Part shown: positions 7,380 to 38,100 of the stretch, piece after piece | Layout: each line of letters opens with the position of its first letter | Position numbering within the stretch: position 1 is the first letter of the stretch | From: Gymnopilus junonius | Lineage: Eukaryota; Basidiomycota; Agaricomycetes; Agaricales; Galerinaceae | Assembly: GCA_015501075.1 (NCBI GenBank) | Contig: JADNYJ010000023.1 | Location: forward strand, 124,001 to 188,000 | Direction of reading: 5' to 3' | DNA: 64,000 nt | Translations under genes and position numbers: made by a program | The notes under the pieces: model-generated | The model's database searches: none | What the model was told of the DNA's origin: nothing | What the model saw: the letters and a program-made list of their open reading frames with translations, nothing else

Positions 7380-8389
7380 TAATATTCAATTAACGTTCTG
7401 GAAATGTTCCTATACAAAATGTCTAATTTTTGGGTTTTCTGGTATGGTCCAGTACTTTCCAGTCCCCCTGGGATTCCCTGGGACTCTAGAGACTCTGAGC
7501 TTCTTAATATATAAAAATATTCTCTATGTAGTTTTTAAAGCCAGATATGCGATATAGCATCATTTTGAATCATAAAAAGATTAAAAAACACAATTTTTTT
7601 TAATAACATATAATAACACCCATACACCATAGTATCTGTAGTATAGATTTAGCTTTCTATTGTGTATTAAAGGTGCTTTACTGCTGTCAATCCTATTTAA
7701 CTTGATGTTTTTGATTTTTTCTGCATTTTATAAAATTTCCTATACCAAGATATCTGATAATACAAAAAATTTGGATATAATTACTTAGAGCATTAGAAAC
7801 ATAGGAGGTTCATCCAAAAAAGGTGATAATTTCTCTTTTTGGATCACTTTATTACTTTTTTATACTTAGAATTATATATCACCTTAATTAAGACTGAAAA
7901 GACTATAATTTGATTAGAAGTTATAACATTCCCCCTCAGTCCCAGGGACCAGTCCCCAGGACTGATGTTGATCCCAGGGGAAATTGACCTAGGGAATAAG
8001 TAAATTTTTAGCAAAGCAATCTAAGCTCATTTTCTATGGTTTTAAAATGTACTTGTGTTTTTGAGAATCCCCAAAACTATAGGGGAATCCCCAGGAATCC
8101 CTAGGGAATCACAGGGGAATCGATAAGACCTCCTCTTGATAGTTAATACTCAAGTATATTATTAGATCCATTTAGATCTTTGGTAACCTTCATTATAGGC
8201 ACCTCTGAGCTTACTGAATAGACCTAGTCCCAGGTCATTACTCAGTTACTACCATCGCACTATTTGGTAGTAATTTCATAATAGACACTCTATCTTTAGT
8301 TGGCCAGTATGAGGTCATACTGCCTACCCTTAATACCCTTGCATTAAGTGTGTTATCTGGGATCATTAATGATATATTTAGCATGTAAA
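7380..8389. other. AT-rich gene-free stretch with CCCTGGGATTCC-type motifs
   Basis: No gene is supported. A CCCCCTGGGATTCCCTGGGACTC motif near 7464-7486 has a diverged inverted counterpart near 8070-8122 (GGGGAATCCCCAGGAATCC), and similar CCCAGGGACC motifs lie near 7932-7980. This could be a diverged foldback element of about 650 bp. The last five bases (GTAAA, 8385-8389) flank the LTR of E1. Confidence 0.4.
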
Positions 8390-8847
8390 TGTTATGACTC
8401 TCTTTTCTGTTATCTTATCACATGCCCCTCATTTTCTTTTCCTTATCATTTATTGAACGATTTACTATTTATAGTTTCTTCATGATCATCTTCGCTCGCG
8501 AGATGATCATTCTCTTTCTTACTTGTATGAGGACAATCTTTCTTTTCTGATCATCATCCCTTCTGCAGTACTCTATGATGATCATCCCCTTCTGATTCCC
8601 CTTGTTTCATCATTGTTTCATTATATTATTATCACACACAAATAAGTATATAAACAGTAGCTAGACTATGATGTACTTTAGCTTGTTCTTGAGAATATAC
8701 TCTCTTGTAACAACCGAGACAAACTTGAACCACTAAGGCAATCTTCTGTCGAAGACAATACCTTAGTGGACTTCATCGAACGACCTCTATGACTACTACG
8801 CCTGACCTTATCTTATCAGATTAGGTTCTGTCATCAATGTCATAACA
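8390..8847 (+). repeat. E1 5' LTR (subtype A)
   Basis: This is a 458-bp LTR whose ends form the inverted pair TGTTATGAC / GTCATAACA. It matches the LTR at 18737-19194 (reverse strand) almost base for base, but differs clearly from E1's own 3' LTR. Differences from its true sister are nearly all CpG transitions. Confidence 0.93.
8647..8690 (+). promoter_or_regulatory. LTR promoter: TATA box and inferred transcript start
   Basis: TATATAA stands at 8647-8653. AGCTTGTTCTT starts 33 nt downstream, at 8680. That 11-mer is the exact complement of the primer-binding site at 8849-8859, which suggests that the element RNA starts at or next to 8680. The same layout is present in the other LTRs. Confidence 0.6.
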
Positions 8848-8848
8848 A

Positions 8849-8859
8849 AAGAACAAGCT
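8849..8859 (+). other. Self-complementary primer-binding site
   Basis: AAGAACAAGCT starts one base after the LTR end. It does not begin with the TGG expected for a tRNA 3' CCA end. It is perfectly complementary to AGCTTGTTCTT inside the LTR (8680-8690), as in Tf1/sushi elements, where the 5' end of the mRNA folds back to prime reverse transcription. Confidence 0.7.
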
Positions 8860-8907
8860 CCCAACTCATTCAACACTTCTGCCTAGCAAGCATTATCCGC
8901 TGACATT

Positions 8908-10190
8908 ATGGCTCGAAGAAGAGGATGATTCGCTGCTAACTTTAGTGATGAAGAATTCTCTGACCCGAACACCGACTGAACCTCTGATGCAGGTGCATCT
9001 GACGAATATGAAACACCACCAGAAGGAGATGAATCTCCTTTAACCAGATCTACTTTCTTTGGATCTACCGTCCAAGAACCCGGTGTATTAAGACATGACT
9101 TTGAATCTTTGCTAGATACTCTACTCAGATCCCAACCCGTCTTTTACCCAACAAACGAACCCGAAATGCCAGAAGGAACTTCTGACACTGCCCCCATCAC
9201 TCCCACCTTCTCCAGAGACCGCTCCAAGGTCAAAACCTTCACCCAAGACTTGGGTGACTATTTCGAATTAAATGGCGACATTTACAACACCAATGCCAAG
9301 AAAATCGTTTCACCCTTGGACTTCTCAAAGGAGGAGAAGCAGAAGCCTGGAAGAAGGCTTGGAGAGAAGACCACACCGAAGAGGTAAAACGCTGCAGGCA
9401 TACCACCGGAGCATCACAAGAACTACAGTTCACCCTAGATTTCGAAAAGGCCTTTAATGAAGCCTTCAAACGACCAAGACAAAGGACAAGCATTCTTCGA
9501 ACTCCGAAACCTGAAGCAGGGAAAAGCTTCAGCTGCCGAACTGAACACCAAGTTCAATGAACTTGTCAAGACGCCAAGATTCCCACCAGGAATGAGAGCA
9601 TCTTGATGATTATTACATGAACACCTTAAACAATGGCTTCAAGAAAAATATGGGACTCGACATACTCCCAACCATGCTCACGCCTGGCAGGGAAGGCAGT
9701 CGAGTATGACACCCATCGAATAACCTAGCGCCCTCTTGGGTAAGACCACCACCCAGGCCCAAATGAATGAAAGACTTGGTGGGCTAATATAGCCAGAGGA
9801 AACCCCACCCCGCACTACCATGCCCGGTACCGAATGAACCACTGAGACCCAAATGCTATGGATGTTGACAAGATCGACGTCAAACCATGACCCAAGAAGA
9901 ACGAAGCGAGCTCATGAGAAAGGGGCTTTGCTTCCGATGCAAGAACCCGGGCACATCTCGAGAGATGCCCGAGAGGGCAAGAACAGGAGGAACCCTCCAC
10001 TGAAGAAGAATCCCCTCAAAGGGAAAGCCTCCATGTGCACATCAGGCCCTCATGCAGGACCTCACCAAGAAGAATGGAAGAAGTGTACGAAATGGGAGAC
10101 CAAGAGGGTTTTCAATAAGGAGATGCATGAGACCAACGTATGCAACTCCTTCCTTAGATATTTATTCTGTAGTCTCGGCTCGAATCGAAA
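8908..10190 (+). pseudogene. E1 gag remnant
   Basis: From ATG 8908 (MARRRG then TGA) a broken frame continues through segments such as FSDEEFSDPNTD, PGVLRHDFESLLDTLL and GDYFELNGDIYNTNAKKIV, then FTLDFEKAFNEAF. Near 9930-9975 is a zinc knuckle CFRCKNPG.., whose spacing is spoiled by single-base deletions relative to E2, where C-x2-C-x4-H-x4-C is intact. Several TGA codons and frame changes inactivate it. The expected role is the nucleocapsid/capsid protein that packages the element RNA. Compared with E2, this half of E1 is clearly diverged, in line with its subtype A origin. Confidence 0.7.
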
Positions 10191-13100
10191 ATAAATTGCT
10201 CCAATTGCCCTTTTCATTCGAGACTGAGAACAGAACGAAAATCATTGGAACCGCTCTGGGAGACACTGGAGCAAAAGGGAAGTTCATTGACCAGAACTTC
10301 ATGAAGAAACACAACTGGAAACAAAGGCATGGAAAAGGAAATTCGAGTCTTCAACGTAGATGGAACCCAAAAAAAAGGGAACATTAAGCGCTATGTTGAT
10401 CTAAAGCTCGACATGATGACAACCCGAATGGAAGCCTACTGGTCACCGCCTAGGAAAACAGAAGATCATTCTTGGTTTTCCCTGGTTCGAAGAAAACAAC
10501 CCAGACATCAACTGGAAAAAGGACACGTCAAACTCAACAGGGAGATTACTACTACTTCCCAAATAGAAGAAGTACCCGATGAGGAAATCCAACAGGTCAA
10601 TCAACTGGACACTCTTCGACTTAATCATTTCCTTTTTAGGTAACGAACCCCTTCCGGAAACGAAGGAGATTTGGAACATCCCAGAGGACACAATGAAATT
10701 TGGATCAATGGAAATTAACTTCCTCGCAAATCTTTGCTCAGAAACATGATGTGAAGAAGGAAGAGAAACCGCTCAAGGAAATGATCCCACCAGAATACCA
10801 TGAATACTTGGACATCTTCGATAAGGAACTGCCAACCGATTCCCGAATCTCGATCTTGGGACCATAAGATCAACTCAAGGAAGGTTTTCAACCAAAGGTC
10901 TTCAAGACATATCCCCTGATGCCCTCAGAGGATACGAACTGGACAAATTCTTGGAAGAAAACCTGAAGAAAGGATACATCTGACCATCCAAATCGCCCAT
11001 GGCTTCCCCCTTCTTTTTCATATCTAAAAAGGATGGGAAGCTTTGACCCTGCCAAGACTACCAGTACCTGAATGAATGGACTGTCAAGAATGCCTATCCC
11101 CTTCCTCTGATCCCGAACTCATGGATAAACTCAAAGGAGCCAAGTATTTCACAAACTTGACATCTGATGGGGTTACAATAACATTCAGATCAAGGACAGT
11201 GACCAATGGAAGGCAGCATTCAAGATGAATAAAGGACTATTCGAACCAACAGTCATGTTTTTGGCATGTGCAACTCTCCGGTGACCTTCCAGTTGATGAT
11301 GGACTCGATGTTCAAAGACGTCATCCATCAAGGTTTTTTATCATTTAATGGACGAATTCTATCTTTCATAAAGATAAGAAGAAACTGGAACAGATAATGA
11401 AAGAAGTCCTTCAAATACTTCAAGACAATGATTTGTATTTGAAACTGGAAAAATGCGCATTCGCCCAGATGAAAATCGATTATCTTGGAATGATTATCCA
11501 AGAAGGAACGATATTGATGGACCCTTCGAAACTCAGCGGTATAGCTGACTGGCTGGAACTGAAAAACGTAAAACAGGTCTGATCCTTTTTAGGATTCGGA
11601 AACTTTTACAGGCGATTTATCAGGAAATACTCGGAAATAGCTCGCGCACTTAATGAGCTGTTGAAAAAGACTGTAGCTTCGAATGGAATGAAGATGCCTA
11701 AGAAATCATTCGAACTACTAAAACAAAAATTCATGGAAGAACCCATCTTGACCATGCCGGACACTGCGAAACAATTCCAGATAGAATGCGACGCATCTAA
11801 ATATGCAACTGGAGCAGTCTTAACACAACTGGACAGCAACGGAGACGACACCCAGTGGTGTTTATCTCAAAGACGTTCTCTCCTACCGAGAGAAATTACG
11901 AGATTTATGACAGAGAACTATTGGCTATGATCCGATCCCTTAAAGAATGGAGACACTACATTCAAGGATCGACCTTCACTATGATCATCTATTCAGACCA
12001 CAAGAATCTGACGTACTTCAGAAGTACTCAGAAACTGAATAGACGCCAAGCAAGATGGTCACTATTCCTTTCGGAATATGACATCCAACTGGTTCACCTC
12101 CCAGAAGCAAAATGGTACAATCGGTCACCCTCTCACATAGACCGGACATGATCCCCGACGAGGATCACAACAATGAAGACAAGATTCTCCTTCTGGAGAA
12201 TCTATTTATAAATTTGATTGACGCTGATCTCCAAATAGAGATTGCCCAATCAAGGAAACAGGACAAGGACGTAGTCGATGCATTGAAACTCCTAACACAA
12301 GAAGGACCTCGAAGTCTCACAAAAGACTTAGATGACTGGGAGACAATGCAAATGGAAGGCATCGGCAAATTAGTCTTTTACAAGAAAAAGAACTGTATTC
12401 CCGATGATCAAGAACTATGAAGGAAAATCATCGCGATGTACCACGACTCGGCCACCGCAGGACACCCCGGAGAATTGGAAATGTACAATGCTGTATGACA
12501 GGTATACTGGTGGCCCGGAATGTGAACATTCATCAAAAATTACATCAAAGGGTGCGGACAATGTCAACAGTTTCAAGATCAACTGAAACCCAGTGAATCC
12601 CTCCTTACCCCTGATCGAAGGAGCCAAATCCATGAGACCATTCGCACAATGCTCTATGGATATGATCACAGACCTCCCTAGCATCGATGGATTTGATTCC
12701 TTATTGATCATGGTCAATCACGGACTTACAAAGGGGTAATCATCATGCCTTGCTCGAAAACTCTTTCACAAGAAGGAGCAGCACTACTCCTTCAGGACAA
12801 TCTATTCAAGCGATTTGGCCTACTGGACAGTATCATTTCTGATAGGGGACCCCAATTTGTGGCCAGAGCCTTCCAAGAACTGCTCAAACTTCTTGGAATC
12901 AAGTCAAAACTGTCAACAGCGTATCATCCTCAATCAGATGGTACCACTGAATGATTCAATCAGGAAATAGAAGCATATCTCACTATCTATTGCTCCTCTA
13001 ACCCGACTACCTGGAAACAACACATTGGCACCCTGGAATTCGTCCACAATGATCACAGACATGCAGATAGACAAAGGACCCCATTTGAACTCATGTTTGG

Positions 13101-13701
13101 AACTAATCCTGTTGTGATTCCCACCACGTTTGAAAACACAAAGTTTCCCTCAGTCAAGGAAAAACTGAAGAACCTCATCTCAGACAGAAAGGAAGCCCTT
13201 GCAGTGCATGAACTGGCAAGAGCAAGAATGGCTGATCAATGAAAATCTAACTTCGTACCATTCAAGGAAGGACAGAAGGTATGGCTTGACTCCAGGAACC
13301 TCAAAATGCGGTATAACAAGAAGCTGGCACCAAGAAGAGAAGGACCGTTCAAGATCAAATGTGTCCTAGGACCTCTCACATATCAACTACAACTGCCAAA
13401 AACATGGAAGATTCATGACATCTTCCATGCAATGTTGTTGATGCCATACACGGAAACACAGGTTCATGGCTGAAACTTCATACAACCACCCCCTGAAACG
13501 ATTGATGGAGAATCAGAATACAAAGTTGAAACCATTCTGAATCATCGAAAGTACAGAAACGGATGCTATCAATACCACGTCAAGTGGCTCAGCTATCCGA
13601 TAACCGAAGCAATGTGGGAACCTGGATCGAATCTTGCCAATGCATTGGAGAAACTCAAAGTTTACAAACAACTTCACTCTCTACCGCCATACCAATCATG
13701 A
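10191..13701 (+). pseudogene. E1 pol remnant (protease, RT, RNase H, integrase, chromodomain)
   Basis: The protease active-site DTGA lies at 10262-10273. The RT region has PSKSPMASPFFFISKKDGKL near 10985-11045; the YMDD region near 11340 is destroyed here but intact in E2. RNase H follows ([18 protein letters not shown] near 11785, then [12 protein letters not shown] and [10 protein letters not shown]). Integrase shows the GHPGELEMY / GCGQCQQF zinc-binding part (12460-12580) and the core with SDRGPQFVARAF and STAYHPQSDGTTE. The C-terminal chromodomain is at about 13516-13656 (VKWLSYPITEAMWEP). The frame ends at TGA 13699-13701. In-frame TGA codons stand where the family has Arg. From about 12101 on it is nearly identical to E2. 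Confidence 0.85.
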
Positions 13702-14024
13702 ACTCAAACACTGCATCCCCACTCTACATCGACAATACCTTCATGATCAACTTATTCACATTCCCAAAACCTCCGCCAACCCCAGAAGAAATGAAAATCA
13801 CATACTGGGAATGGAAGTTTGCCCACGAACCACCAGCCCCTCTACCCAAAAATATACCCTGGAACAACAAATACGAAAGGAAGGCTATCATTACAGTCTG
13901 GATGATCGACAGAGAGACCTCAAGATGGGAGACTGAAACCATCACCCCCATCAAGGAGAAGGCATCAAGATGCCTGATCAAGAAACTGAAAATGATCCTC
14001 GAGGAATACCTGGAACACCTATAA
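13698..14024 (+). CDS. E1 small downstream reading frame, ATGA overlap with pol stop
   Basis: The pol stop TGA (13699-13701) overlaps the ATG at 13698-13700. The new frame runs 108 codons to 14024 without a stop. The product starts MNSNTASPLYIDNTF, has a Pro-rich part (FPKPPPTPEEM), two Trp-rich segments (ITYWEWKF, NIPWNNKYERK) and a charged helical end (LIKKLKMILEEYLEHL). I do not recognise a domain. The E2 copy is identical over its length, which may reflect gene conversion rather than selection. It could be a separate protein made by reinitiation or a frameshifted tail of pol. Confidence 0.45.
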   Translation: MNSNTASPLYIDNTFMINLFTFPKPPPTPEEMKITYWEWKFAHEPPAPLPKNIPWNNKYERKAIITVWMIDRETSRWETETITPIKEKASRCLIKKLKMILEEYLEHL

Positions 14025-14079
14025 AACAGGTGAACCAACATCCCTCATTTCTTCAGTTCCTTCATCATCTTTCACAAAC

Positions 14080-15236
14080 ATGCCTCACCTTTCCACTTGA
14101 ACCCATGCTGCTGCCTCCACTCCCAACTTGTCCCCTTCTATGATACGCACTTGCCTCGCCCAAGCGAATGCACCTTCTCTTGAATCAACGCCCACCCCTT
14201 CGTCCTCCCACACTAGAAACGAAGTCCGTCTCTCTCAGACAGACTCCTCCTCTGATTCGCCCGACCCGAATGATGCCCCCTACTCCATGCATCCCCCTTG
14301 TATCCCCATGGTACATGCTCCCATCCATTCCATTGAGGACTTCCTCAACTTATTAGATTTCGTTGACTTCCAGCAGCTGACTCATAAGGAACTTGAACAG
14401 TTCCTTAGCCACCCCTGCCACTACTCCACTGCACTCGAAGTTCTCCAAACTGATCCCTTCCTTAGGGATACCCTTCGACAGTTCAAATATGAAACCGACC
14501 AGACTGCACGCCACCATGAAGTAATTAAGGTGTCTCGAACAAAATCCCTACAATTGTTCGAGACCCTTATGCGCTTCTGGCTCAAAAGAGCCATCAACCC
14601 ACTCCTCATCAGCAGCAGACGATGGGGAGAATGCCCTCCTGCTGCCACATCAGCTATTAGACCCACCCGGCCATTCCTCCTCATGACGAACGATTCGTCA
14701 ACACCATCTCAGTTGACAACCACTCCCCAAGACCCATTCCGACATGCTCCCTCGCACCACCTCCAACCACGCCGCCCACCACAGTTCCCCGAAGGTGCAC
14801 CCTCACCACCATGCAGATGACCTCTGCCCAGAACGCCACCCAAAACAACCCTCCTGCCTACGCCGTATCTTCTCCAATACCACCCCGACCCCAGACTCCC
14901 TTCCAACCCATCCGTACACCAACTAACCCCCGACCAAGTTCACAATGATGCTGCTTCATTTGCAGCAGCGCAAACCACTGGCAGGCAGACTGCTGCAGCT
15001 ACCGCTGCCGCCATTGCCACCAGTATCGCCCAGGACACAACTCGATCAACTGTAGTCGACGACCGATCCAACGAAGTGACGGGGAGTTCATAGGCTATGC
15101 CTATGAATTCACCGAAGAACAACTGGCACATGTCGACGACATTGACAACACACCGAATGATTGGTATGATACAGCGCATGACAGCTGGCAGGGAGAAGAG
15201 GTGGAGAACAACATGAGCAGTGACCCCTATTATTGA
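14080..15236 (+). pseudogene. E1 ORF3: extra protein with twin CCHC zinc knuckles
   Basis: ATG 14080 opens MPHLST, then an in-frame TGA, then a frame with a Ser/Thr/Pro-rich start, a helical block (FLNLLDFVDFQQLTHKELEQ .. LEVLQTDPFLRDTL) and a His/Pro-rich middle. A frame change near 14650-14800 leads to the C-terminal part with CFICSSANHWQADC (C-x2-C-x4-H-x4-C) and a second knuckle CRHCHQYRPGHNSINC (C-x2-C-x6-H-x4-C). It ends in an acidic region with TGA at 15234-15236, directly before the polypurine tract. A gene here, after the integrase and with its own knuckles, is unusual for chromoviruses. The E2 copy keeps both knuckles despite clear divergence, so the domain was probably functional. 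Confidence 0.6.
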
Positions 15237-15269
15237 AGCCAGGGGCTTCAATTCTTAGCAGGGGGGTAA

Positions 15270-15729
15270 TGTTATGACTCCCCATTTCTCTTATCTTATC
15301 GCGCACCCCATTTCCTTTCTTTTCTTGTTATCAATTATCGAACGATTTATTATTTATAGTTTCCTCATGATCATCTTTGCTCGCAAGATGATCATTCACT
15401 TTCTTACACGTATGCGGACAATCTTTCCTCTTGATCATCATCCCTCGTACTGCCCCGATGATGATCACCCCTTTCCGATTCCCCTGTTTCATTATCATTT
15501 CGTTTATATTATTATCAAACCCAAATAGTATATAAACAGTAGCTAGTCTACCATGTACATTAGCTTGTTCTTGAGAATATACTCTCTTGTAACAACTGAG
15601 ATGAACTTGAACCACTAAGGCAATCTTCTGTCGAAGACAATACCTTAGCGGACTTCATCGAATGACCTCTATGACTACTATGCCTGACCTTATCTTATCA
15701 GATTAGGTTCTGTCGTCAATGTCATAACA
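15270..15729 (+). repeat. E1 3' LTR (subtype B)
   Basis: This 460-bp LTR follows the polypurine tract GCAGGGGGGTAA. It starts TGTTATGACTCCCC and ends GTCATAACA. It matches the E2 LTR at 25709-26165 and differs from E1's 5' LTR in many positions and small indels. Confidence 0.93.
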
Positions 15730-16601
15730 TTAACCCTACTATTCATAGAGCAGCATTACTCTTCTTCCCTTCCACATTCTGTCTTTGTTTGGCAATGATA
15801 TACACCAAGCAAAATGCAGTCTTGGAGGAAGCGGAAGAGATGAGGATGGTGTGTGCCCCACCATGGTAGTTGGAGGAGTTCAACCAGTCTTCGCACCAGT
15901 AGGAAGTCCAGAAGAGGGGGCGGTAGAGCATGGTGAGGTCCTCGGCAGTGGAGGTGGGTGTGTACTGTGGGTCAGAGAGGCACAGCGCAGGATTTGATTG
16001 TATGGTCTGCAATCTAAGTAGTCAAAGGAAAAAAATGAAAGGTGTTAGTAATGGTACATTAGATATAAGAACATATGGACCTGCTGGCAAATGTGACCGG
16101 GGGATGTAAAATGCGACTTTATTCACATCGTTGGGAGATATAGGCAGCAAAAGGTACCTTGTTGGCACAAGGTAGCCATATATCCTTTTGCCTGCTTGAA
16201 TTTTGGGATGTGTCAACTTGAGAATGATACCGAATCCCCAAACTGGGATCAGGCTGTGTGTTTTTGACAAGCATTTGCCATCAGCAGAGGAGGGAGTGTG
16301 GTGGAAATCAAGATATCTAGAGATAAAACAACATAATGACATTAGCACTGCATCTCTGTAAGCTTGAAAAGAGAGGAATAACATACTGGAAATGAGGATG
16401 TTCACCAAGAGCTTGATAGGTCACATTATTCACTGAGAAGCCAAACTTGTCAATTTTGATGAGGACATGGTTTAGTGGCATGTCATCAGACCCATGATAG
16501 GGTGAGCTCGAGTAGATGAGGAGAGGAGCATTTGGATCCAATCCAGAAGAGGGCCGTGGTGAGCAGAGGGAGACATTAGTGTTGATGAATGAGTTGGACA
16601 T
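15730..16601 (-). pseudogene. DUF2855-family gene, 5' half
   Basis: The start is ATG 16601 (MSNSFINTNVSL). An exon ending near HFQ is followed by a GTATGT intron and an exon with FHHTPSSADGK, IPVWGFG, IYGYLVPTRYLLLPISPNDV and AFYIPRSHLPA. A second intron follows, then RPYNQILRCAS, and after a 2-base slip DPQYTPTSTAEDLTMLYRPL and ISSASSKTAFCLVYIIAK. These match, in order, the conserved blocks I know of the DUF2855 family (related to quinone-oxidoreductase folds; substrate unknown). The gene stops at the E1 3' LTR. Its continuation is at 26166 on the other strand. An in-frame TGA just before the break shows further decay. Confidence 0.8.
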
Positions 16602-17058
16602 GTTGATTGTCTTTCAAGTTGGAGCTATGTAACTGAAGAGAACAGAGTAAACAGGACCTTGGCAAGACAGGCAGTGGCTGGGACCATATTTATGTTGACT
16701 TCAAAGGGGGAGCAAAGGTGGCAAGTCCTCCAGCAACTACAAACCCAGAGATCATATGTCTGTGACAAGGTGCAACTGTGACTTGAAGCTCAGTGAAAAG
16801 GTGAGCTCGACTCTGCCAGTGAGCTCAAAACTGCCTTGGGAACTGCTTCTCCTTTTTCTCCTCATGAATGCAAATCAATCAGCTCCTCTCGATGTTTAGT
16901 ATGCATCTCATTTGTGTTTGAATGCATCTTGTTGTTACAAGGACCCTTTAGAGGCCACATTTTTATTCCCCCCTTCAAGCCTTTTGATTGCACATCAAAA
17001 CTGAGGGAATTTTCTTATCTTATCTACCAAGCTAAATGAGCTCTCCTTCACATGGTGG

Positions 17059-17544
17059 GCAAGCAGTTGTCCAATCGAGTTTTGACTGAGTATGTCCATT
17101 TATGGCACACTCATTTGTCATGTGGTTGTCCAATTGAATGTGCATTACATAGTGTCACAGGCCCAACTCTTGAGCCATGAGTGTCGGTGACACCCACTTG
17201 GAGCAACTTAACTTACCCAGCTCTGGACAAGGATGCAACTCCAAAGATCAAGTTTAAGAAGCTATTTTGGTGGTCAGAGGGGCCTATAAATATATTTTAT
17301 AAAATTTAATACTAAGAAATCTCCCTTGCAGACATCCAGTTTTGTCATTTTCGGACTTGTTTTTGGAGCCAGGAAAGCTTCAGCAGCCTGCTCGGCTCAA
17401 GCTGAACCCTGGCCAAACAGCAGCAACACTAAATAATTGGACAAGTCAGGCAGTTTGTGACACCAGCTGCGGTCCATTATTTGGACAGTCATATGCCCTA
17501 TAGATGGATATGCTTGGTCAAAACTCGATTGGACAACTGCTTGC
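17059..17544. repeat. 28-bp perfect inverted repeat with flanking direct repeat
   Basis: Positions 17059-17086 are the exact complement of 17517-17544. Just outside, CATCAAAACTGAGGGAATTT occurs at 16993-17012 and again at 17566-17585, each followed by TTCTTATCTTATCT. This suggests a non-autonomous element or a partly duplicated one. Confidence 0.65.
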
Positions 17545-17740
17545 CTGCCGTGTCAAGAATTTGTGCATCAAAACTGAGGGAATTTGTTCATGGCAATTTC
17601 CTTCTTATCTTATCTGTCCAATATTCACTTACAATTGATTAAATATTGATACTTAATGGTGCAATTCTTTTGATTTGATCATTTTCTATGTTCATCCACT
17701 TAAGAAAATCACAAAGAATGTCAATTTCCCCCTTCAATAT

Positions 17741-17931
17741 TGCTTACCTCACTGGTAATCAACAATATGCACAAAGTCATGGGTGCTGGCTCAACTTTTG
17801 CCATTTGGTTAAATTGTTTAGAATGTAAATTATATATATTTACATTCTAAACAATTAAACTGAATATCAATGTGTGAGCCATTTATGTGCCACAGACTTT
17901 GTGCATATTGTTGATTAGCAGTGAGGTAAGT
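17741..17931. repeat. Foldback element of about 190 bp
   Basis: The outer arms TGCTTACCTCACTG.. and ..CAGTGAGGTAAG, with the adjoining AATCAACAATATGCACAAAGTC block, are inverted copies. The inner arms (AAATTGTTTAGAATGTAAAT and complement) form a 20-bp near-perfect stem around a short AT centre near 17840. Confidence 0.75.
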
Positions 17932-18736
17932 AATACCCATTGCCAGGCAATAAGACAAATCCATAATGACTTATAGTATTATTGCCATTGAAAATTTAAT
18001 TATTCACTGCTAGCCTTGTACAAGAAACAGCATAAAGTACTACAACATGCCAAACATCTGGGTACTAAAGAATTTGTTAATCAGGTGTGCTACTTGATGT
18101 ATGGTCACACATGGGATTGTTGATGTATCATGTCACATTCATGTCTGACAGCTACCATGCTGATGTAATCAGCTCAAATATGAACCACAAGTTTTGCACA
18201 TGCTCCTGGCATTCATGTTTCTGCCTCACTCTGCCTTGTCCTTTTTTTTCCTTGTACATGTATTGAGCATTGATCTGAATTCACTTTTGTCACTGTATAT
18301 TGCTGCTCATTGTCATTTTTTTTGATAATATATATATTGCATGCTGCTGATTGCTATACATCCTATGCCTACATTCTGTTTTGCCTAAATATTAATCTAC
18401 ATTTTTTAAGACTCTCATCATCTTTCATTTTGGTTCTGGTCCTCATATTGCTGTGCATTGCATCAGCATCCTCCTCCAAGTTAAATTATGGTTACCAAAT
18501 GTAGCTATGAGTAGGGCTGTACACTGTCACTGTATTTACAGTTGTATGGCTACCATATATATGGTGCCATATCCATCCCCTTGGCATGTAGAAGCCCTTT
18601 CAAATGGTATGGTGGATGGTATGGTAGAGTACCATTGAGAACCATCAGAGATGGCCATATTCGGCCATAATACAGTGATACAGTGATAGGGTACCTACCC
18701 AGTTACCTATGAATTTTGCAATTTTACTATATTTAC

Positions 18737-19194
18737 TGTTACGACATTGACGACAGAACCTAATCTGATAAGATAAGGTCTGGCATAGTAGTCGTAGAGG
18801 TCATTCGATGAAGTCCACTAAGGTATTGTCTTCGACAGAAGATTGCCTTAGTGGTTCAAGTTCATCTCGGTTGTTACAAGAGAGTATATTCTCAAGAACA
18901 AGCTAAAGTACATCGTAGTCTAGCTACTGTTTATATACTTATTTGTGTGTGATAATAATATAATGAAACGATGATGAAACAAGGGGAATCAGAAGGGGAT
19001 GATCATCATAGAGTACTGCGGAAGGGATGATGATCAGAAAAGAAAGATTGTCCTCATACAAGTAAGAAAGAGAATGATCATCTCGCGAGTGAAGATGATC
19101 ATGAAGAAACTATAAATAGTAAATCGTTCGATAAATGATAAGGAAAAGAAAATGAGGGGCACGTGATAAGATAACAGAAAAGAGAGTCATAACA
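18737..19194 (-). repeat. E2 3' LTR (subtype A)
   Basis: This 458-bp LTR follows the polypurine tract (on minus, ..AGTAGGGGGGTAA). It pairs with E1's 5' LTR, not with E2's own 5' LTR. Differences from 8390-8847 are about eight single bases, all CG versus TG or CA. Confidence 0.93.
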
Positions 19195-19227
19195 TTACCC
19201 CCCTACTAAGAATTGAAGCCCCTGGCT

Positions 19228-20433
19228 TCAATAATAGGGCTCACTGCTCAAGTTGTTCTCCACCTCTTCTCCCTGCCAAGTGTCATGTGCTGTGTCGTGC
19301 CAATCGTTGGGCGAGTTGTCGATATCATCGACATTCGCCAATTGTTCTTCCGTAAATTCATAGGCATAGCCTATGAATTCTCTGTCACTACGTCTGATCA
19401 GTCGTCAACTACAGTCGATCGAGTTGTGGCCAGGACAATACTGGCAGCAGTGGCAGCAGCGGTAGTTGTGGCAGTCTGCCTGCCAGTGGTTTGCACTGCT
19501 GCAAATGAAGCAGCATCAACGTGGACTTGGTCGGGGGTTCGTCAGGGTACGAGCAGGTCAGAAAGGGGTCTGGGGTTGGGGAGGTATAGAAGGGGGTTCG
19601 GTGTAGGCAGGAGGGTTATTACGGGCGGCATTCTGGGCAGAGGTCATCTGCATGGTGGTGAGGGCATGCCTTCGGGGGACTGTGGTGGGTAGCGTGGTTG
19701 GGGGTGGTGCATGGGAGCATGTCGAAATGGGTCTTGGGGAGTGATCATCGATGGAGATGGTGTTGATGAACTGTTTGTCATGAGGAGGAATGGGCGGGTA
19801 GGTCTGTGAAGTGGTGTCATAAGAGGAGGGTGAGCGGTAAGGTTCCTCCTTGGACCTGATAGCAGAGGTGGCAGTAGGGCACCATTCTCCTCGTCGTCTG
19901 CTGCTAACGAGGAGGGGGTTGATGGCTCTTTCAAGCCAGAAGCGCATAAGGGTCTCGAACAATTGTAGGGATTTTGTTCGAGATGCCTTAATTACTTCGC
20001 GGTGGTGCTTGGTTCAGTCAATTTTGTGCTTGAACTGGTGGAGAGTGTCCCTAAGAAAGGGATCAGACTGGAGGACTTCGAGGGCCATGGAGTAACGGCA
20101 GGGGTGGTCAAGGAACTGTTCAAGTTCCTTATGAGTCAGCTGCTGGAAGTTGACGAAATCGAGTAAGTTGAGGAAATCCTTGATGGAGCGAACGGGGGCA
20201 TGTACCGTAGGAATGGGAGGTGGGTATCTAGTGGAGGGGGCGTCATTCAGATCAGGTGAATCGGAGGAGTCCGTCTGGGAGAGGCGGACTTCAGTTCTAG
20301 TGCAAGAGGAAGAGGGGGCTGGGGTCAGTTTGAGCGAAGGTGCATTCGCTTGGGCGAGGCAAGTGCGTATCATAGAAGGGGACAAGTTGGGAGTGGAGGC
20401 AGCAGCATGGGTTCAAGTGGAAAGGTGAGGCAT
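19228..20433 (-). pseudogene. E2 ORF3 with twin CCHC zinc knuckles
   Basis: Read on minus from ATG 20433, it has the same plan as E1 ORF3: Ser/Thr/Pro-rich start, helical block (FLNLLDFVNFQQLTHKELEQ), Pro-rich middle and two knuckles (CFICSSANHWQADC, then CCHCCQYCPGHNSIDC), ending at TGA 19230-19228. The protein is clearly diverged from the E1 copy outside the knuckles (for example VHAPVRSIKDF against VHAPIHSIEDF). Stops remain at several places, including a TGA after the second knuckle. Confidence 0.6.
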
Positions 20434-20488
20434 GTTTGTGAAAGATGATGAAGGAACTGAAGAAATGAGGGATGTTGGTTCACCTGTT

Positions 20489-20815
20489 TTATAGGTGTTC
20501 CAGGTATTCCTCGAGGATCATTTTCAGTTTCTTGATCAGGCATCTTGATGCCTTCTCCTTGATGGGGGTGATGGTTTCAGTCTCCCATCTTGAGGTCTCT
20601 CTGTCGATCATCCAGACTGTAATGATAGCCTTCCTTTCGTATTTGTTGTTCCAGGGTATATTTTTGGGTAGAGGGGCTGGTGGTTCGTGGGCAAACTTCC
20701 ATTCCCAGTATGTGATTTTCATTTCTTCTGGGGTTGGCGGAGGTTTTGGGAATGTGAATAAGTTGATCATGAAGGTATTGTCGATGTAGAGTGGGGATGC
20801 AGTGTTTGAGTTCAT
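20489..20815 (-). CDS. E2 small downstream reading frame, ATGA overlap with pol
   Basis: This 108-codon frame is the identical twin of E1 13698-14024, starting at the ATG that overlaps the pol TGA. It has no recognised domain. Identity to E1 is complete, as expected inside the shared recombination or conversion tract. Confidence 0.45.
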   Translation of the reverse strand: MNSNTASPLYIDNTFMINLFTFPKPPPTPEEMKITYWEWKFAHEPPAPLPKNIPWNNKYERKAIITVWMIDRETSRWETETITPIKEKASRCLIKKLKMILEEYLEHL

Positions 20816-23800
20816 GATTGGTATGGCGGTAGAGAGTGAAGTTGTTTGTAAACTTTGAGTTTCTCCAATGCATTGGCAAGATTCGATCCAGGTTCCCACA
20901 TTGCTTCGGTTATCGGATAGCTGAGCCACTTGACGTGGTATTGATAGCATCCGTTTCTGTACTTTCGATGATTCAGAATGGTTTCAACTTTGTATTCTGA
21001 TTCTCCATCAATCGTTTCAGGGGGTGGTTGTATGAAGTTTCAGCCATGAACCTGTGTTTCCGTGTATGGCATCAACAACATTGCATGGAAGATGTCATGA
21101 ATCTTCCATGTTTTTGGCAGTTGTAGTTGATATGTGAGAGGTCCTAGGACACATTTGATCTTGAACGGTCCTTCTCTTCTTGGTGCCAGCTTCTTGTTAT
21201 ACCGCATTTTGAGGTTCCTGGAGTCAAGCCATACCTTCTGTCCTTCCTTGAATGGTACGAAGTTAGATTTTCATTGATCAGCCATTCTTGCTCTTGCCAG
21301 TTCATGCACTGCAAGGGCTTCCTTTCTGTCTGAGATGAGGTTCTTCAGTTTTTCCTTGACTGAGGGAAACTTTGTGTTTTCAAACGTGGTGGGAATCACA
21401 ACAGGATTAGTTCCAAACATGAGTTCAAATGGGGTCCTTTGTCTATCTGCATGTCTGTGATCATTGTGGACGAATTCCAGGGTGCCAATGTGTTGTTTCC
21501 AGGTAGTCGGGTTAGAGGAGCAATAGATAGTGAGATATGCTTCTATTTCCTGATTGAATCATTCAGTGGTACCATCTGATTGAGGATGATACGCTGTTGA
21601 CAGTTTTGACTTGATTCCAAGAAGTTTGAGCAGTTCTTGGAAGGCTCTGGCCACAAATTGGGGTCCCCTATCAGAAATGATACTGTCCAGTAGGCCAAAT
21701 CGCTTGAATAGATTGTCCTGAAGGAGTAGTGCTGCTCCTTCTTGTGAAAGAGTTTTCGAGCAAGGCATGATGATTACCCCTTTGTAAGTCCGTGATTGAC
21801 CATGATCAATAAGGAATCAAATCCATCGATGCTAGGGAGGTCTGTGATCATATCCATAGAGCATTGTGCGAATGGTCTCATGGATTTGGCTCCTTCGATC
21901 AGGGGTAAGGAGGGATTCACTGGGTTTCAGTTGATCTTGAACTGTTGACATTGTCCGCACCCTTTGATGTAATTTTTGATGAATGTTCACATTCCGGGCC
22001 ACCAGTATACCTGTCATACAGCATTGTACATTTCCAATTCTCCGGGGTGTCCTGCGGTGGCCGAGTCGTGGTACATCGCGATGATTTTCCTTCATAGTTC
22101 TTGATCATCGGGAATACAGTTCTTTTTCTTGTAAAAGACTAATTTGCCGATGCCTTCCATTTGCATTGTCTCCCAGTCATCTAAGTCTTTTGTGAGACTT
22201 CGAGGTCCTTCTTGTGTTAGGAGTTTCAATGCATCGACTACGTCCTTGTCCTGTTTCCTTGATTGGGCAATCTCTATTTGGAGATCAGCGTCAATCAAAT
22301 TTATAAATAGATTCTCCAGAAGGAGAATCTTGTCTTCATTGTTGTGATCCTCGTCGGGGATCATGTCCGGTCTATGTGAGAGGGTGACCGATTGTACCAT
22401 TTTGCTTCTGGGGAGGTGAACCAGTTGGATGTCATATTCCGAAAGGAATAGTGACCATCTTGCTTGGCGTCTATTCAGTTTCTGAGTACTTCTGAAGTAC
22501 GTCAGATTCTTGTGGTCTGAATAGATGATCGTAGTGAAGGTCAATCCTTGAATGTAGTGTCTCCATTCTTTAAGGGATCGGATCATAGCCAATAGTTCTC
22601 TGTCATAAATCTCGTAATTTCTCTCGGTAGGAGAGAACGTCTTTGAGATAAACACCACTGGGTGTCGGTCTCCGTTGCTGTCCAGTTGTGTTAAGACTGC
22701 TCCAGTTGCATATTTAGATGCGTCGCATTCTATCTGGAATTGTTTCGCAGTGTCCGGCATGGTCAAGATGGGTTCTTCCATGAATTTTGTTTTAGTAGTT
22801 CGAATGATTTCTTAGTGTCTTCATTCCATTCGAAGCTATGGTCCTTTTTCAACAGCTCGTTAAGTGCGCGAGCTATTTCCGAGTATTTCCTGATAAATCA
22901 CCTGTAAAAGTTTCCGAATCCTAAAAAGGATCAGACCTGTTTTACGTTTTTCAGTTCCGGCCAGTCAGCTATACCGCTGAGTTTCGAAGGGTCCATCGAT
23001 ATCATTCCTTCTTGGATAATCATTCCAAGATAATCGATTTTCATCTGGGCGAATGCGCATTTTTCCAGTTTCAAATACAAATCATTGTCTTGAAGTATTT
23101 GAAGGACTTCTTTCATTATCTGTTCCAGTTTCTTCTTATCTTTATGAAAGATGAGAATGTCATCCATGTAAATGATAACAAACCTTGATGGACGACGTCT
23201 TTGAACATCGAGTCCATCATCAACTGGAAGGTCACCGGAGAGTTGCACATGCCGAAAAACATGACTGTTGGTTCGAATAGTCCTTTATTCATCTTGAATG
23301 CTGCCTTCCATTGGTCACTGTCCTTGATCTGAATGTTATTGTAACCCCATCAGATGTCAAGTTTTGTGAAATACTTGGCTCCTTTGAGTTTATCCATGAG
23401 TTCGGGGATCAGAGGAAGGGGATAGGCATTCTTGACAGTCCATTCATTCAGGTACTGGTAGTCTTGGCAGGGTCAAAGCTTCCCATCCTTTTTAGATATG
23501 AAAAAGAAGGGGGAAGCCATGGCGATTTGGATGGTCAGATGTATCCTTTCTTCAGGTTTTCTTCCAAGAATTTGTCCAGTTCAGTATCCTCTGAGGGCAT
23601 CAGGGGATACGTCTTAAAGACCTTTGGTTGAAAACCTTCCTTGAGTTCAATCTTATGGTCCCAAGATCGAGATTCGGGGAATCAGTTGGCAGTGTCTTTA
23701 TCGAAGATGTCCAAGTATTCATGGTATTCTGGGGGATCATTTCCTTAAGTGGTTTCTCTTCCTTCTTCACATTATGTTTCTGAGCGAAGATTTGCAGGAA

Positions 23801-24335
23801 GTTAATTTCACATTGATCCAAATTTCTTGTCGTCCTCGGGATGTTCCAAATCTCCTTCGTTTCTGGAAGGGGTTCGTTACCTAAAAGGAAATGATTAAGT
23901 CTGAAGAGTCTCCAGTTGATTGACCTGTTGGATTTCCTCATCGGGTACTTCTTCTATTTGGGAAGTAGTAGTAATCTCCCTGTTGAGTTTGACATGTCCA
24001 TTTTTCCAGTTGATGTCGGGTTGTTTTCTTCGAACCAGGGAAAACCAAGAATAATCTTCTGTTTTCCTAGGCCGGTGACCAGTAGGCGTTCCATTCGGGG
24101 TTGTCCATCTATGTGAGCTTCAGATCAACGTAGGCTTGATGGTTCCCTTTTTTTTGGGGTTCCGTCTACGTTGAAGACTCGGATTTCTTTTTCCAGTGCC
24201 TTTGTTTCCAGGTTGTGTTTCTTCATGAAGTTCTGGTCGATGAACTTCCCTTTTGCTCCAGTGTCCCCAGAGCGTTCCAATGATTTTCATTCTGTTCTAG
24301 TCTCGAATGAAAAGGGCAATTGGAGCAATTTATTT
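20812..24335 (-). pseudogene. E2 pol remnant
   Basis: Order on minus: protease region near 24260, RT with an intact FVIIYMDDILIF near 23170, then KKLEQIMKEVLQILQDND. A continuous 229-codon stretch (22781-22092) covers RNase H ([48 protein letters not shown]) and the start of the integrase connector. The integrase core is at about 21770-21560 and the chromodomain near 21000-20860. Compared with E1, the RNase H frame is intact here where E1 lost one base. The TGA codons at GYI-PSK, KL-PCQDY and TE-FNQE are shared with E1. Confidence 0.85.
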
Positions 24336-24339
24336 TCGA

Positions 24340-25649
24340 TTCAGCCGAGACTACAGAATAAATATCTAGGAAGGAGTTGCATACGTTGGTTTCATGCATC
24401 TCCTTATTGAAAACCCTCTTGGTCTCCTATTTCATAATTTCTTCTCATTCTTCTTTGGTGAGGTCCTGCATGAGGGCCCTGATGTGCACATGGAGTGCTT
24501 TCCCTTTGAGGGGATTCTTCTTCAGTGGAGGGTTCCTCCTGTTCTTGCTCCTCTCGGGCAATCTCTCGAGATGTGCCCGGGTTTCTTGCATCGGAAGCAA
24601 AGCCCCTTTCTCATGAGCTCGCTTCGTTCTTCTTGGGTCATGGTGTTGACATCGATCTTGTCAACATCCATAGCATTTGGGTCTCAGTGGTTCATTCGGT
24701 AGCCGGGGCATGGTAGTGTGGGGGGGGGTTCCTCTGGCTAAATTAGCCCACCAAGTCTTTCGTTCATTGGCGCCTGGGTATTGGTCTTGCCTAGGAGGCC
24801 ACTAAGTTCATTCGATGGGTGTCATATTCGACTGCTTCCTCTGCCAAGCGGCGAGTGTGGTAGGAAGTATGTCAGTCCCATTATTTTTCTTGAAGCCAAT
24901 TGTTTAAGGCATTCATATAGTAGTCGATCAGGATGCTCTCATTCCAGTGTGGGAATCTTGGCAGTTTTACAAGTTCATTGAACTTGGTGTTAGTTCGGCA
25001 GCTGAAGCTTTTCCCTGCTTCAGGTTTCGGAGTTCGAAGAATGCTTGGTCCTTCATCTCAGTCAGTTTAAAGGCTTCTTGAAAGGCTTTTCGAAATCTGC
25101 GTTGACCATAGTTCTTGGTGATGTCCCGGTGGGTATCCTGTGGCTTTCTATCTTCTTGTATGGTCTTCTCTCCAAGCCTTCTTCCAGGCTTCTGCTTCTC
25201 CTCCTTGAGAAGTCCAAGGGTAACACGATTTTCTTGGCATCAGTGTTGTAAATGTCCCATTTATTCAAAGTAGTCACCCAGGTCTTGGTGAAGTTTTGAC
25301 CTTGGAGCGGTCTCGGAGAAGGGCATAGGGATATTCCTATTCCTTTTCCATGGAGGAGGTGGGGAGTGGGGGCAGTGTCAGAAGTTCCTTCTGGCATTTC
25401 GGGTTCGTTGTTGGGTAAAAGACGGGTTGGGATCTGAGTAGAGTATCTAGCAAAGATTCAAAGTCATGTCTTAGTATGCCGGGTTCTTGGACAGTAGATC
25501 CAAAGAGAGTCGATCAGGTTAAAGGAGGTTCTTCTCCTTCTGGTGGTGTTTCATATTCATCAGAGCACCTGCATCAGAGGTTGGTCGTGTTCGGGTCAGA
25601 GAATTCTTGTCACTAAAGTTAGCGGCAATCGTCCTCTTCTTCGAGCCAT
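24340..25649 (-). pseudogene. E2 gag remnant
   Basis: The start ATG is 25649 (MARR). The zinc knuckle reads CFRCKKPGHISRDC (near 24605-24565) with correct C-x2-C-x4-H-x4-C spacing. The rest is broken by stops and frame changes but aligns with E1 gag (TPKPEAGKSFSCR and FEKAF blocks). It represents subtype B gag sequence. Confidence 0.7.
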
Positions 25650-25696
25650 AATGTCGTGGATAATGCTTGCTAGGCAGAAGCATTGAATGAGTTGGT

Positions 25697-25707
25697 AGCT
25701 TGTTCTT
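25697..25707 (-). other. E2 self-complementary primer-binding site
   Basis: On minus it reads AAGAACAAGCT and starts one base inside the 5' LTR edge (25709). The complementary 11-mer lies in the LTR at 25863-25873, downstream of a TATATAA box. The layout is the same as in E1. Confidence 0.7.
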
Positions 25708-25708
25708 T

Positions 25709-26165
25709 TGTTATGATTTGATGACAGAACCTAATCTGATAAGATAAGGTCTGGCTAGTAGTCATAGAGGTCATTCGATGAAGTCCGCTAAGGTATTGTC
25801 TTCGACAGAAGATTGCCTTAGTGGTTCAAGTTCATCTCAGTTGTTACAAGGAGTATATTCTCAAGAACAAGCTAATGTACATGGTAGACTAGCTATTGTT
25901 TATATACTATTTGGGTTTGATAATAATATAAATGAAACAATAATGAAACAGGGGAATCAGAAAGGGGTGATCATCATCGGGGCAGTACGAGGGATGATGA
26001 TCAAGAGGAAAGATTGTCCGCATATGTGTAAGAAAGTGAATGATCATCTTGCGAGCAAAGATGATCATGAGGAAACTATAAATAATAAATTGTTCGATAA
26101 TTGATAACAAGAAAAGAAAGGAAATGGGGTGCATGATAAGATAAGAGAAATGGGGAGTCATAACA
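25709..26165 (-). repeat. E2 5' LTR (subtype B)
   Basis: This 457-bp LTR is the near twin of E1's 3' LTR (15270-15729). It abuts GTTAA (26166-26170), the duplicated target inside the DUF2855 gene. Confidence 0.93.
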
Positions 26166-26862
26166 GTTAACATCAAAGAAGAACATTGGGTTTACAGAAA
26201 AACTGGGATTGTATGATGATGTTGTTTCATATGACTTGTTCAAGTCGACTTCCACCTCCGGATCTTCCTCCTTCTCATCCATGTTTGAGAAGACACAAGG
26301 GCAGAGGTGGATATATGTCAATGTTGCAGGGAACAAAGAGCTCAATAAGAAAATATACATGTACTTCACATCACCTTATACTGCAGGATTACTAGCAGCC
26401 ATCTCATTGGGTGTGACCAACTTGTCACCCTCCTCATCTCAGGGGTCGACAATGGAATGGAGCATGAAGACACTGTCTGATCTTTCCTCTTCCTCTTCCT
26501 CTTCCTCTCTTTCTTTCCCTTCCTCTGACCCCACCATCTTGTCAAACACCCCATCAACCCCAACCTCCCCCTTCCCACCCAAACTCGAGCAATTTTTCAT
26601 GCCCAAGTGGCTCTCCATCCACAAACACCAACTCCCCACACACACCATCCTCGCATGGCAGAATCAGGCATGGAAGGAGCTCATGTGAGATTGTCCTGCC
26701 TGGGTAGAATTGGAGAGGGTTTATGGACCTGAGAGTGTGCTAGCAGCATATAGGAGGCTGGCAAAGGATGGGTTAGGTCCTGAGAGGGGATTTGTTTGGA
26801 GTCTTTGGGATGAGGAGGAGGGAGTGAAGAAAGCAGGTCTATTGCAGAGGGCAAGATTGTGA
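26166..26862 (+). pseudogene. DUF2855-family gene, 3' half
   Basis: The frame starts at the LTR edge with TSKKNIGFTEKLGLYDDVV, then has WIYVNVAGNKELNKKIY, LGVTNLSPSSS, a Ser-rich insert, FFMPKWLSIH and QAWKEL, then an in-frame TGA, and ends YGPESVLAAYRRLAKDGLGP .. GFVWSLWD .. with TGA at 26860-26862. These are the C-terminal blocks of DUF2855 proteins. Joining the minus-strand half ending at 15735 to position 26166 restores IVGLTSKKN in frame across the target site. The gene was cut by subtype B element insertion and then separated by the inversion. Confidence 0.8.
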
Positions 26863-30664: not shown

Positions 30665-31626
30665 ATAGGGAAGACGATGGAAAGATAATGAGAAATGCAA
30701 GATGCGGATGGCTCTTTGATGTGTTTTCAAGAGATTCAATCCCTCAGAAAGCCAAGGTACATTTGAACTGCTCAGTGACCACCGCTTATTGAAGTTCTTT
30801 TCCAGCTTTCGATTGATATGAAGTAAATGACCTTAGCTGTTGGGTTCGCACTAGTCTTCGAGTGCAGTCCTGTATATTTTGTTTGCAGAAATGTGGAGTA
30901 CAGTAAATCCCAGGTGCTAGGCACCCAGCCGGGAGACTCATGGACTAGGAGGATGAATGACGTTCCCGACTGAATTGAGTATTTTAAATCTCAATGGCAG
31001 AGGCGGGTGGTGCTGATTTTGCATAGTCTTTAATACATCCACCTTTAAATACATAATTCCATTCAGGCCATTTCCAGGTAAAGCATTAGTTATTCGATTA
31101 AATTCAAGTAGTTTCTCAAGCACAATAGCCCACCCCAGTTTACCAATGTCCTGCTTCGAATTCCAGTCCACGAGAAAAAGTTATTGTGAAGGAACTTGTT
31201 TCGAAAGTATATCGAACTGCCTCTTTCCTATCACTGTTATGGTTTGAGTTACTGACAGGCTGCATGGGCTTAGAAGAAGACAACTTTGTCATCTACCGGA
31301 TCACACCAGGCTGTCAGTCTGTAGTGGTTAACTGAGGCTCAGAATAGGAAAAGGTGGGTGGGAGGGTTCACTCGATTTGACCGTACGCCTGTGGGAATAG
31401 CTGCAGTAATCGAGAATTAACTAACACGGGTTGAGCCCTGTATTGAAGATGGTTAAGAAGAGCCTACAGATGACAAGCACGGTGAATTAGCATTTTCATT
31501 TTAAATAGTGAGAGATCAAACATGGACTGACATGCTGGCCGAGGATAATGAATGTCACACTGTTGGGGAGCTCAGGACGGAAGTGAATGAACGAGCTTAT
31601 GGTTTAATTTACATTTGGGAACCTGG
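30665..31626. other. No supported gene
   Basis: Only short unrelated frames occur. A minus piece at 31171-30938 (LEFNRITNALPGNGLNGIMY) looks protein-like but has no splice support. I see no repeats or RNA genes here. Confidence 0.3.
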
Positions 31627-37262: not shown

Positions 37263-37407
37263 CCCCCACCATGATAGTGGATCGACGAATCTTTACCTTT
37301 CTCTGGCTTGCTCCGACTAGTCTTTGACTGTGGAAGGAGACCTGTAAGTGTTTCTGCCTCCCTCACTTTCTCTTCCTCCCTCATTAGACCATCGTCATTC
37401 TCATCTT

Positions 37408-37872
37408 CCCCTATCGGTGCTACTGCGTCTTACGGACGTCAGAGGGGTTGACCTCTTTGGTACCTCTGTGTCGCATCTATACATGCGATAGCTCGAACTT
37501 TTCAAGGTACCATCGGCAATGTCAGGAGTCTTGGCCTGTGTGTCAGGAAACTAAAATGGTTGGGAGGTGTTTATCCCCTTGACGTCGAACTCGTGTACGT
37601 TGGGTAGCGAGTCTGGCGTTGTTGTTAAAGGAGAGCACCTTGTCTTTCTCCATATCCGTCACCGGAGCCCCACGTCTCATAATCTGGTTATCCGAAGGAG
37701 ACTGTCACCGCACTGCTGCCGGGTCCATGTTGCTTCTTCTGAAGGTGCGCCTACAGCGTATACCTAGGAAGGAGTGATTTAGCCTCAGAGTCTTGTTGTT
37801 TATGCGATCAGACATTGGTCAGTGGCGTGTGGATGAGAGGTTTATTTATAGAGCCGGCATACGAGGGGGTTT
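37408..37872 (+). ncRNA. Structured RNA-like unit, copy 1
   Basis: It begins CCCCTATCGGTGCTACTGCG and ends GCATACGAGGGGGTTT. The first and last bases can pair (CCCC with GGGG). A hairpin CGUC-UUACG-GACG is followed by CAGAGG..CCUCUG and by UCGCAU-cuauac-AUGCGA, a perfect 6-bp stem. TCAGGAGTCTT occurs near 37520. The unit lies inside a probable intron (GTAAGTG at 37344 to TACATAG at 38007, with TACTAAC at 37981). No reading frame is shared with the other copies. RNA identity is unknown; it matches no snRNA, 5S, SRP or RNase P feature that I know. Confidence 0.5.
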
Positions 37873-38100
37873 CGATGAGATTTTCTTGGATCCAAGCCCA
37901 GTGCAAAGGGCATGGGTTAGCTGATCTGGTCTCTTTTGTCCTGTTTTTATTTCCTCCTCACTATGACATTTTTACAACGTTACTAACATTTCTCTTTGTC
38001 TACATAGACCCGCCTTTTAATCGTGTTCTATGACAAACAAAGCAGTCCAGTAAGTGTTAACTTCTCTCTTCCTTCCTCCTTCACTTTCATTTCTTCACCT

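Follow-up and report, generated by a model that had tools for sequence, protein, structure and literature searches.

Marks of a probable inversion between two opposed Ty3/Gypsy-type LTR retrotransposons in Gymnopilus junonius, and of sequence exchange between its arms

A 64,000-nucleotide stretch of the genome of the basidiomycete Gymnopilus junonius (assembly GCA_015501075.1, contig JADNYJ010000023.1, positions 124,001 to 188,000; hereafter, the window) carries two long terminal repeat (LTR) retrotransposons of one family, E1 and E2, which lie in opposite orientation on either side of a short segment. Their target-site duplications and LTRs were found to match crosswise between the elements, and a dispersed repeat and a DUF2855 gene are each divided between an outer flank and the intervening segment. 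Taken together, these marks indicate that the ancestral order of the locus was the uninverted one. It is difficult to demonstrate a repeat-mediated inversion with a single genome, since its breakpoints lie inside the repeats; here, the four kinds of marks agree without an outside reference. The main features are given below, where P1 and P2 denote the two insertions from which E1 and E2 are proposed to derive, and C146 and C432 denote the contig of the window and a second contig of the same genome.

8385-8389, no strand: left target-site duplication GTAAA, partner at 18732-18736
8390-15729, plus strand: E1, a chimeric, degenerate Ty3/Gypsy-type LTR element, left end P1, right end P2
8390-8847, plus strand: LTR A (in E1), partner LTR C of E2
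15270-15729, plus strand: LTR B (in E1), partner LTR D of E2
15730-15734, no strand: target-site duplication TTAAC, partner at 26166-26170
15735-18731, no strand: inverted segment between the elements (the middle), 2997 bases, present whole on two contigs, C146 and C432
18732-18736, no strand: target-site duplication TTTAC, adjoining E2
18737-26165, minus strand: E2, a chimeric Ty3/Gypsy-type LTR element with its domain matches in separate broken frames
18737-19194, minus strand: LTR C (in E2)
25709-26165, minus strand: LTR D (in E2)
26166-26170, no strand: target-site duplication GTTAA, adjoining E2

A preliminary description of this DNA had reported 5-mers at 8385-8389, 15730-15734, 18732-18736 and 26166-26170, with crosswise matching between them as reverse complements. 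All four were present, adjoining the ends of E1 and E2, and the crosswise matching was borne out. The probability that both pairs would match in this way by chance was 1.3e-6, given the 5-mer frequencies of the window itself, and 2 of 2,000,000 random quadruples of 5-mers from the window showed the same double match. The two copies at the segment ends are thus of the same family, oppositely oriented, and have exchanged their target-site duplications, as expected of an ectopic inversion mediated by transposable elements. The inversion of 15730-18736 that had been claimed stood as an inversion, but its breakpoints did not, as the true breakpoints are inside both elements. The inverted segment also takes in the inner part of each element, and E1 and E2 are both chimeras.

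On the minus strand of E2, matches to RVT_1, RT_RNaseH, rve, SH3_Tf2-1 and Chromo were found in that order, in separate broken frames; a domain scan that covered two E1 frames gave no match. Judged by this domain order between the LTRs of E2, the elements would be Ty3/Gypsy chromodomain LTR retrotransposons.

Both LTRs of one insertion are copied from one template and are identical at the start. Within E1, LTRs A and B differed at 53 of 454 positions and, within E2, LTRs C and D differed at 51 of 451 (88-89% identity within an element), while crosswise comparison gave 14 differences in 458 for A and C (96.9% identity) and 12 in 457 for B and D (97.4%). Alignment columns that divided the four LTRs two and two, gaps included, grouped A with C and B with D in 50 cases, A with D in 4, and A with B in 1. 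In whole-genome searches in which 40 candidates were scored for each LTR, A (queried with its first 211 bases) had C and the C432 counterpart of C as its best listed matches other than itself; for B, they were the C432 copy of B, D and the C432 counterpart of D. In a tree of 16 LTRs, A, C and the C432 counterpart of C were separated with a support of 83, and six relatives lay together with B and D beyond a branch with a support of 100; the branching order among B, D and their C432 counterparts was left open by this tree (support 56-77). Both copies are therefore chimeric by their crosswise LTR partners, with a crossover that is not exactly placed. The idea that E1 and E2 are intact, independent insertions was ruled out by the LTR partners and the split gene.

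CpG transitions accounted for 11 of the 14 differences between A and C and for 7 of the 12 between B and D. Because most differences between partner LTRs are of this kind, LTR age is inflated. As a separate observation, the predominance of CpG transitions between partner LTRs (8390-26165) suggests cytosine methylation of E1 and E2.

The left insertion lies in a dispersed repeat, the pieces of which are now found at the following positions.

8132-8389, no strand: left piece of the dispersed repeat, the insertion target of P1, with at least 31 copies elsewhere at 87-93%
18680-18731, no strand: other piece of the dispersed repeat, reversed, adjoining TTTAC

The middle ends in 48-52 bases (18680-18731) that, when reversed, form the next part of the repeat at 8132-8389. 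Of the 28 listed matches of this second piece, 22 adjoin a listed match of the left-flank piece, 21 of them with exactly the expected spacing, and the remaining 6 were without a listed neighbour. All six of the repeat copies that were fetched continue past the rejoined point for a further 48 to 65 bases; in a control with the opposite end of the middle, similarity ended 7 bases beyond the flank in six of six copies. Since the repeat copies are contiguous across the rejoined point, base 8389 and the reversed base 18731 were once neighbours, with one copy of the duplication. A second dispersed repeat was noted near the left flank, at 7470-8139, with seven main partners listed at 83-93%.

The right insertion divides the DUF2855 gene as follows.

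15735-16601, minus strand: first half of the cut DUF2855 gene, profile match 15776-16318, start codon and introns by eye only
26166-26772, plus strand: second half of the cut DUF2855 gene, profile match 26155-26772

The first half, in the turned segment, matches positions 18-170 of the profile PF11017 on the minus strand (E 1.2e-34), and the second, which starts at the junction beyond E2, matches positions 174-333 on the plus strand (E 5.9e-23). Across the whole genome, PF11017 gave four matches, since C146 and C432 each carry both halves, one on either strand; the profile search found no further genome copy of the gene except on C432. Three homologous proteins (P0002-P0004) carry both parts in a single chain. 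By eye, reading frame and homology run unbroken from the reversed base 15735 through one GTTAA to 26171 and, because homology is continuous over the cut, the right element appears to have sat in coding sequence. At neither breakpoint was there deletion or duplication, as judged from the exact spacing of 21 of the 22 paired repeat copies and from the continuous gene frame as read by eye. The frames are closed at 15743 and 26688 by stops that fall inside the homologous coding sequence, and on this evidence the window's DUF2855 gene has decayed as well as being cut. Two counted stops were rejected as proof of gene death: the stop in the first half lies in an intron called by eye, and that in the second half, a TAA, belongs to LTR D.

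From these results the following history is proposed. P1, with LTRs A and C, and P2, with LTRs B and D, would be related Ty3/Gypsy-type elements that inserted some 3 kb from each other in opposed directions, the former in the dispersed repeat and the latter in the DUF2855 gene. A crossover between their internal regions would then have inverted everything between the crossover points, leaving each element part P1 and part P2 with duplications and LTR partners crosswise. Both the repeat and the gene would have been left in separated, oppositely oriented pieces, the first half of the gene being carried with the inverted segment. Later, in each of two haplotypes independently, gene conversion would have passed sequence between the arms of the resulting large inverted repeat. 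This history as a whole, from opposed insertions through the crossover inversion to later conversion between arms, is considered highly probable. Homologous recombination between the two opposed copies, as originally claimed, gains support from the LTR partners, the split repeat and the split gene. The word "prove" in that claim was too strong, as an assembler flip at a 2.1-kb near-identical tract would look alike; the uninverted ancestral order held.

The tract in question is shared by the two arms.

12100-14177, plus strand: E1 conversion tract, identical to E2 apart from a one-base length difference near 12572
20336-22412, minus strand: E2 counterpart of the identical tract

C432 (23,134 bases) matches the window from 10357, inside E1, to 32402 in the same order, with TTAAC, the middle, TTTAC, E2, GTTAA and the right flank arranged as in the window. 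In what follows, the E1 and E2 copies are called W1 and W2 in the window and C1 and C2 in C432. Exact runs shared by the arms measured 1606 and 473 bases in C146 and 1087 and 459 bases in C432. Over the tract, W1 and W2 differed at 0 of 2048 positions and C1 and C2 at 15 of 2050, while the two contigs differed from each other at 83-90 of 2044-2049. Between 12010 and 14058 of E1, the arms of one contig agreed with each other and differed from the other contig at 78 sites, and the alleles agreed against the other arm at none; 15 further sites were of other kinds (10 with C1 alone, 4 with C2 alone, 1 mixed). From 14178 to 15269 there were 0 arm-with-arm and 158 allele-with-allele sites, and in the LTR at 15270-15729 there were 1 and 48, respectively. 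Within the tract, each arm thus resembles the opposite arm more than it resembles its own allele, as in a flip/flop region. The arms are homogenised, and the pattern points to gene conversion that acted independently in each contig.

Four other copies of the family differed from the four arms by approximately 7-14% in the tract (four sub-windows). At 13500-14058 the divergence between the two contigs was 8-9%, almost that of unrelated copies, as would result if conversion had run one way in one haplotype and the other way in the other. Direction and parentage could not be assigned from the outside copies, as all four were closer to the window tract than to C432 at 13500-14058. At 14078-14177 there were 18 sites at which C1 alone differed and a single one for C2, which suggests that E2 was copied onto E1 there in the window haplotype; C1 may instead have changed here on the arrival of a neighbouring 1.07-kb insert. 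This insert of approximately 1.07 kb (3722-4791 of C432) lies in E1 of C432 between the bases matching 14059 and 14077 of the window and is absent from the other three arms; it had no match among the other fetched loci and contains short internal repeats only.

To the left, between 10357 and 12009 of E1, differences confined to one copy numbered 28 in C2, 26 in W1, 15 in W2 and 6 in C1, and the other sites comprised 5 arm-with-arm, 4 allele-with-allele, 2 crosswise and 3 mixed. From 10490 to 12009 identity among the four arms was 95.6-99.2%, against 87-94% for those outside copies that could be aligned in this part, which suggests an earlier exchange common to both haplotypes. One outside copy does not extend to the left of about 11370, and its misaligned values there (40-56% identity) were excluded. 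Comparison of five other copies at the 5' side gave no consistent P1 or P2 signal.

Compared with the window, C432 differed at 13 of 2997 positions in the middle (0.43%) and at 97 of 6223 in the right flank (1.56%), where divergence peaked at 5% in 31077-31576; LTRs B, C and D differed at 4 of 460, 4 of 457 and 16 of 453 positions, respectively. Both ends of C432 break off within homologous sequence, like an alternative-haplotype fragment, and C432 is probably the other haplotype (allele) of the window locus. The genome shows the inverted state only, in two of two contigs, and a single inversion before the haplotypes split is the simplest account of this result.

Several observations weigh against the proposed history. 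The left junction (GTAAA and LTR A) is present in one contig only, since C432 starts inside E1. A genome search found no second contig for the left flank or for 44000-46500 of the window, so that either the assembly contains the second haplotype only in part or C432 is a recent duplicate. LTR D differs more from its C432 counterpart (16 of 453) than from B (12 of 457), and E2 of C432 is not a simple allele there. Between the contigs the middle is less diverged than the right flank, which a single, recombination-free history does not explain. The crossover could be placed no more narrowly than approximately 9840-14177 of E1, as its exact position is hidden by conversion; the left internal part is a mosaic that none of the fetched relatives resolves. 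Finally, the marks of the ancestral order would remain equally after an assembler flip of the segment as after a real inversion.

A variant of the same explanation is that the segment has flipped repeatedly, so that C146 and C432 were inverted by separate events with their own conversion tracts. The separate homogenisation of the arms in the two contigs fits this variant, and for the yeast flip/flop region it is stated that some conversion events between the inverted repeats end in a crossover (PMC9731477). Both available copies have the same orientation, however, and one inversion before the haplotype split is simpler; repeated flipping is therefore regarded as rather unlikely. The main rival, an assembly error, is improbable; here the true order would be uninverted, and in both C146 and C432 the assembler would have crossed from arm to arm within the near-identical tract of 2.1 kb. 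Reads shorter than the exact runs (1606 and 473 in C146, 1087 and 459 in C432) cannot link the sides of the tract. Against such an error, the two contigs were assembled separately and agree; and the assembly appears to be long-read, as the 32 of the 898 contigs with a listed length range from 12,588 to 1,372,811 bases and no N occurs in 238,617 fetched bases, overlaps included. Arm-specific differences lie on both sides of the tract, and reads of approximately 5 kb would probably resolve it. The assembled orientation is thus presumably correct.

Aberrant transposition of a hybrid element, with ends from two copies, is a very remote alternative to homologous recombination: LTR retrotransposons have no cut-and-paste step and, apart from the duplications, neither the repeat nor the gene shows any loss or gain. 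Such events are considered for DNA transposons in PMC2775673. Two ordinary independent insertions with accidentally crosswise flanks, whose LTRs were later likened by gene conversion, can be set aside with near certainty, since, although conversion between these elements is well supported and the family is a mosaic, the 5-mer pattern has a chance of 1.3e-6 and the split repeat and split gene would be unexplained, which already excludes this reading.

Rearrangements involving HERV-K are reportedly read from LTR trees together with duplications. In REANNOTATE (PMC2672092), recombination between elements is diagnosed when the LTRs of one element do not cluster; at the present locus, each LTR can be assigned its partner, and what is seen is an inversion. 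Exchanged duplications together with chimeric, opposed copies are an established signature of ectopic recombination (PMC2775673). The Drosophila buzzatii inversion 2z3, produced by Galileo, is alike in its opposed copies, exchanged duplications, chimeras and breakpoints free of deletion or duplication; it differs in that it was made by a DNA transposon and was studied by comparison with non-inverted chromosomes (PMC2775673). In Gymnopilus junonius, by comparison, the elements are LTR retrotransposons, approximately 3 kb lies between them, and the ancestral order was read within one genome.

The flip/flop region of Saccharomyces chromosome XIV resembles the present locus in its homogenised inverted-repeat arms, paralogues that are closer than orthologues, and inverted segment; in yeast, however, the repeat is made up of two sporulation gene pairs, and the segment occurs in either orientation (PMC9731477). 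Flipping is ascribed there to occasional crossover during conversion. Here, the repeat is a degenerate retrotransposon pair and the two contigs show the inverted state only. The locus joins two known phenomena, transposon-made arms and homogenisation that is visible in two contigs, and C432 shows that such arms kept converting each other. It offers a worked test for finding inversions of this type, and a place at which the link between conversion and re-inversion would be measurable. More tentatively, and with less than even confidence, the degenerate pair might be a self-maintaining switch, in which separate conversion in each haplotype would keep the repeat recombinogenic and the 3-kb segment flipping, with both orientations segregating. 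Among the papers listed in literature searches, none was recognised as being on this locus, which says little.

Other features of the window were also noted. Inside the inverted segment, a 58-base inverted-repeat pair (84%) lies at 17046-17103 and 17500-17557, with related copies on C556, C269, C244 and C12, and 17046-17557 looks like a small terminal-inverted-repeat element (MITE-like). The same segment contains a fold-back sequence of 198 bases at 17738-17935, approximately 81% identical to its own reverse complement. In the right half of the window, short direct repeats with 78-91% identity are present at 37365-37498, 38060-38190 and 40457-40560.

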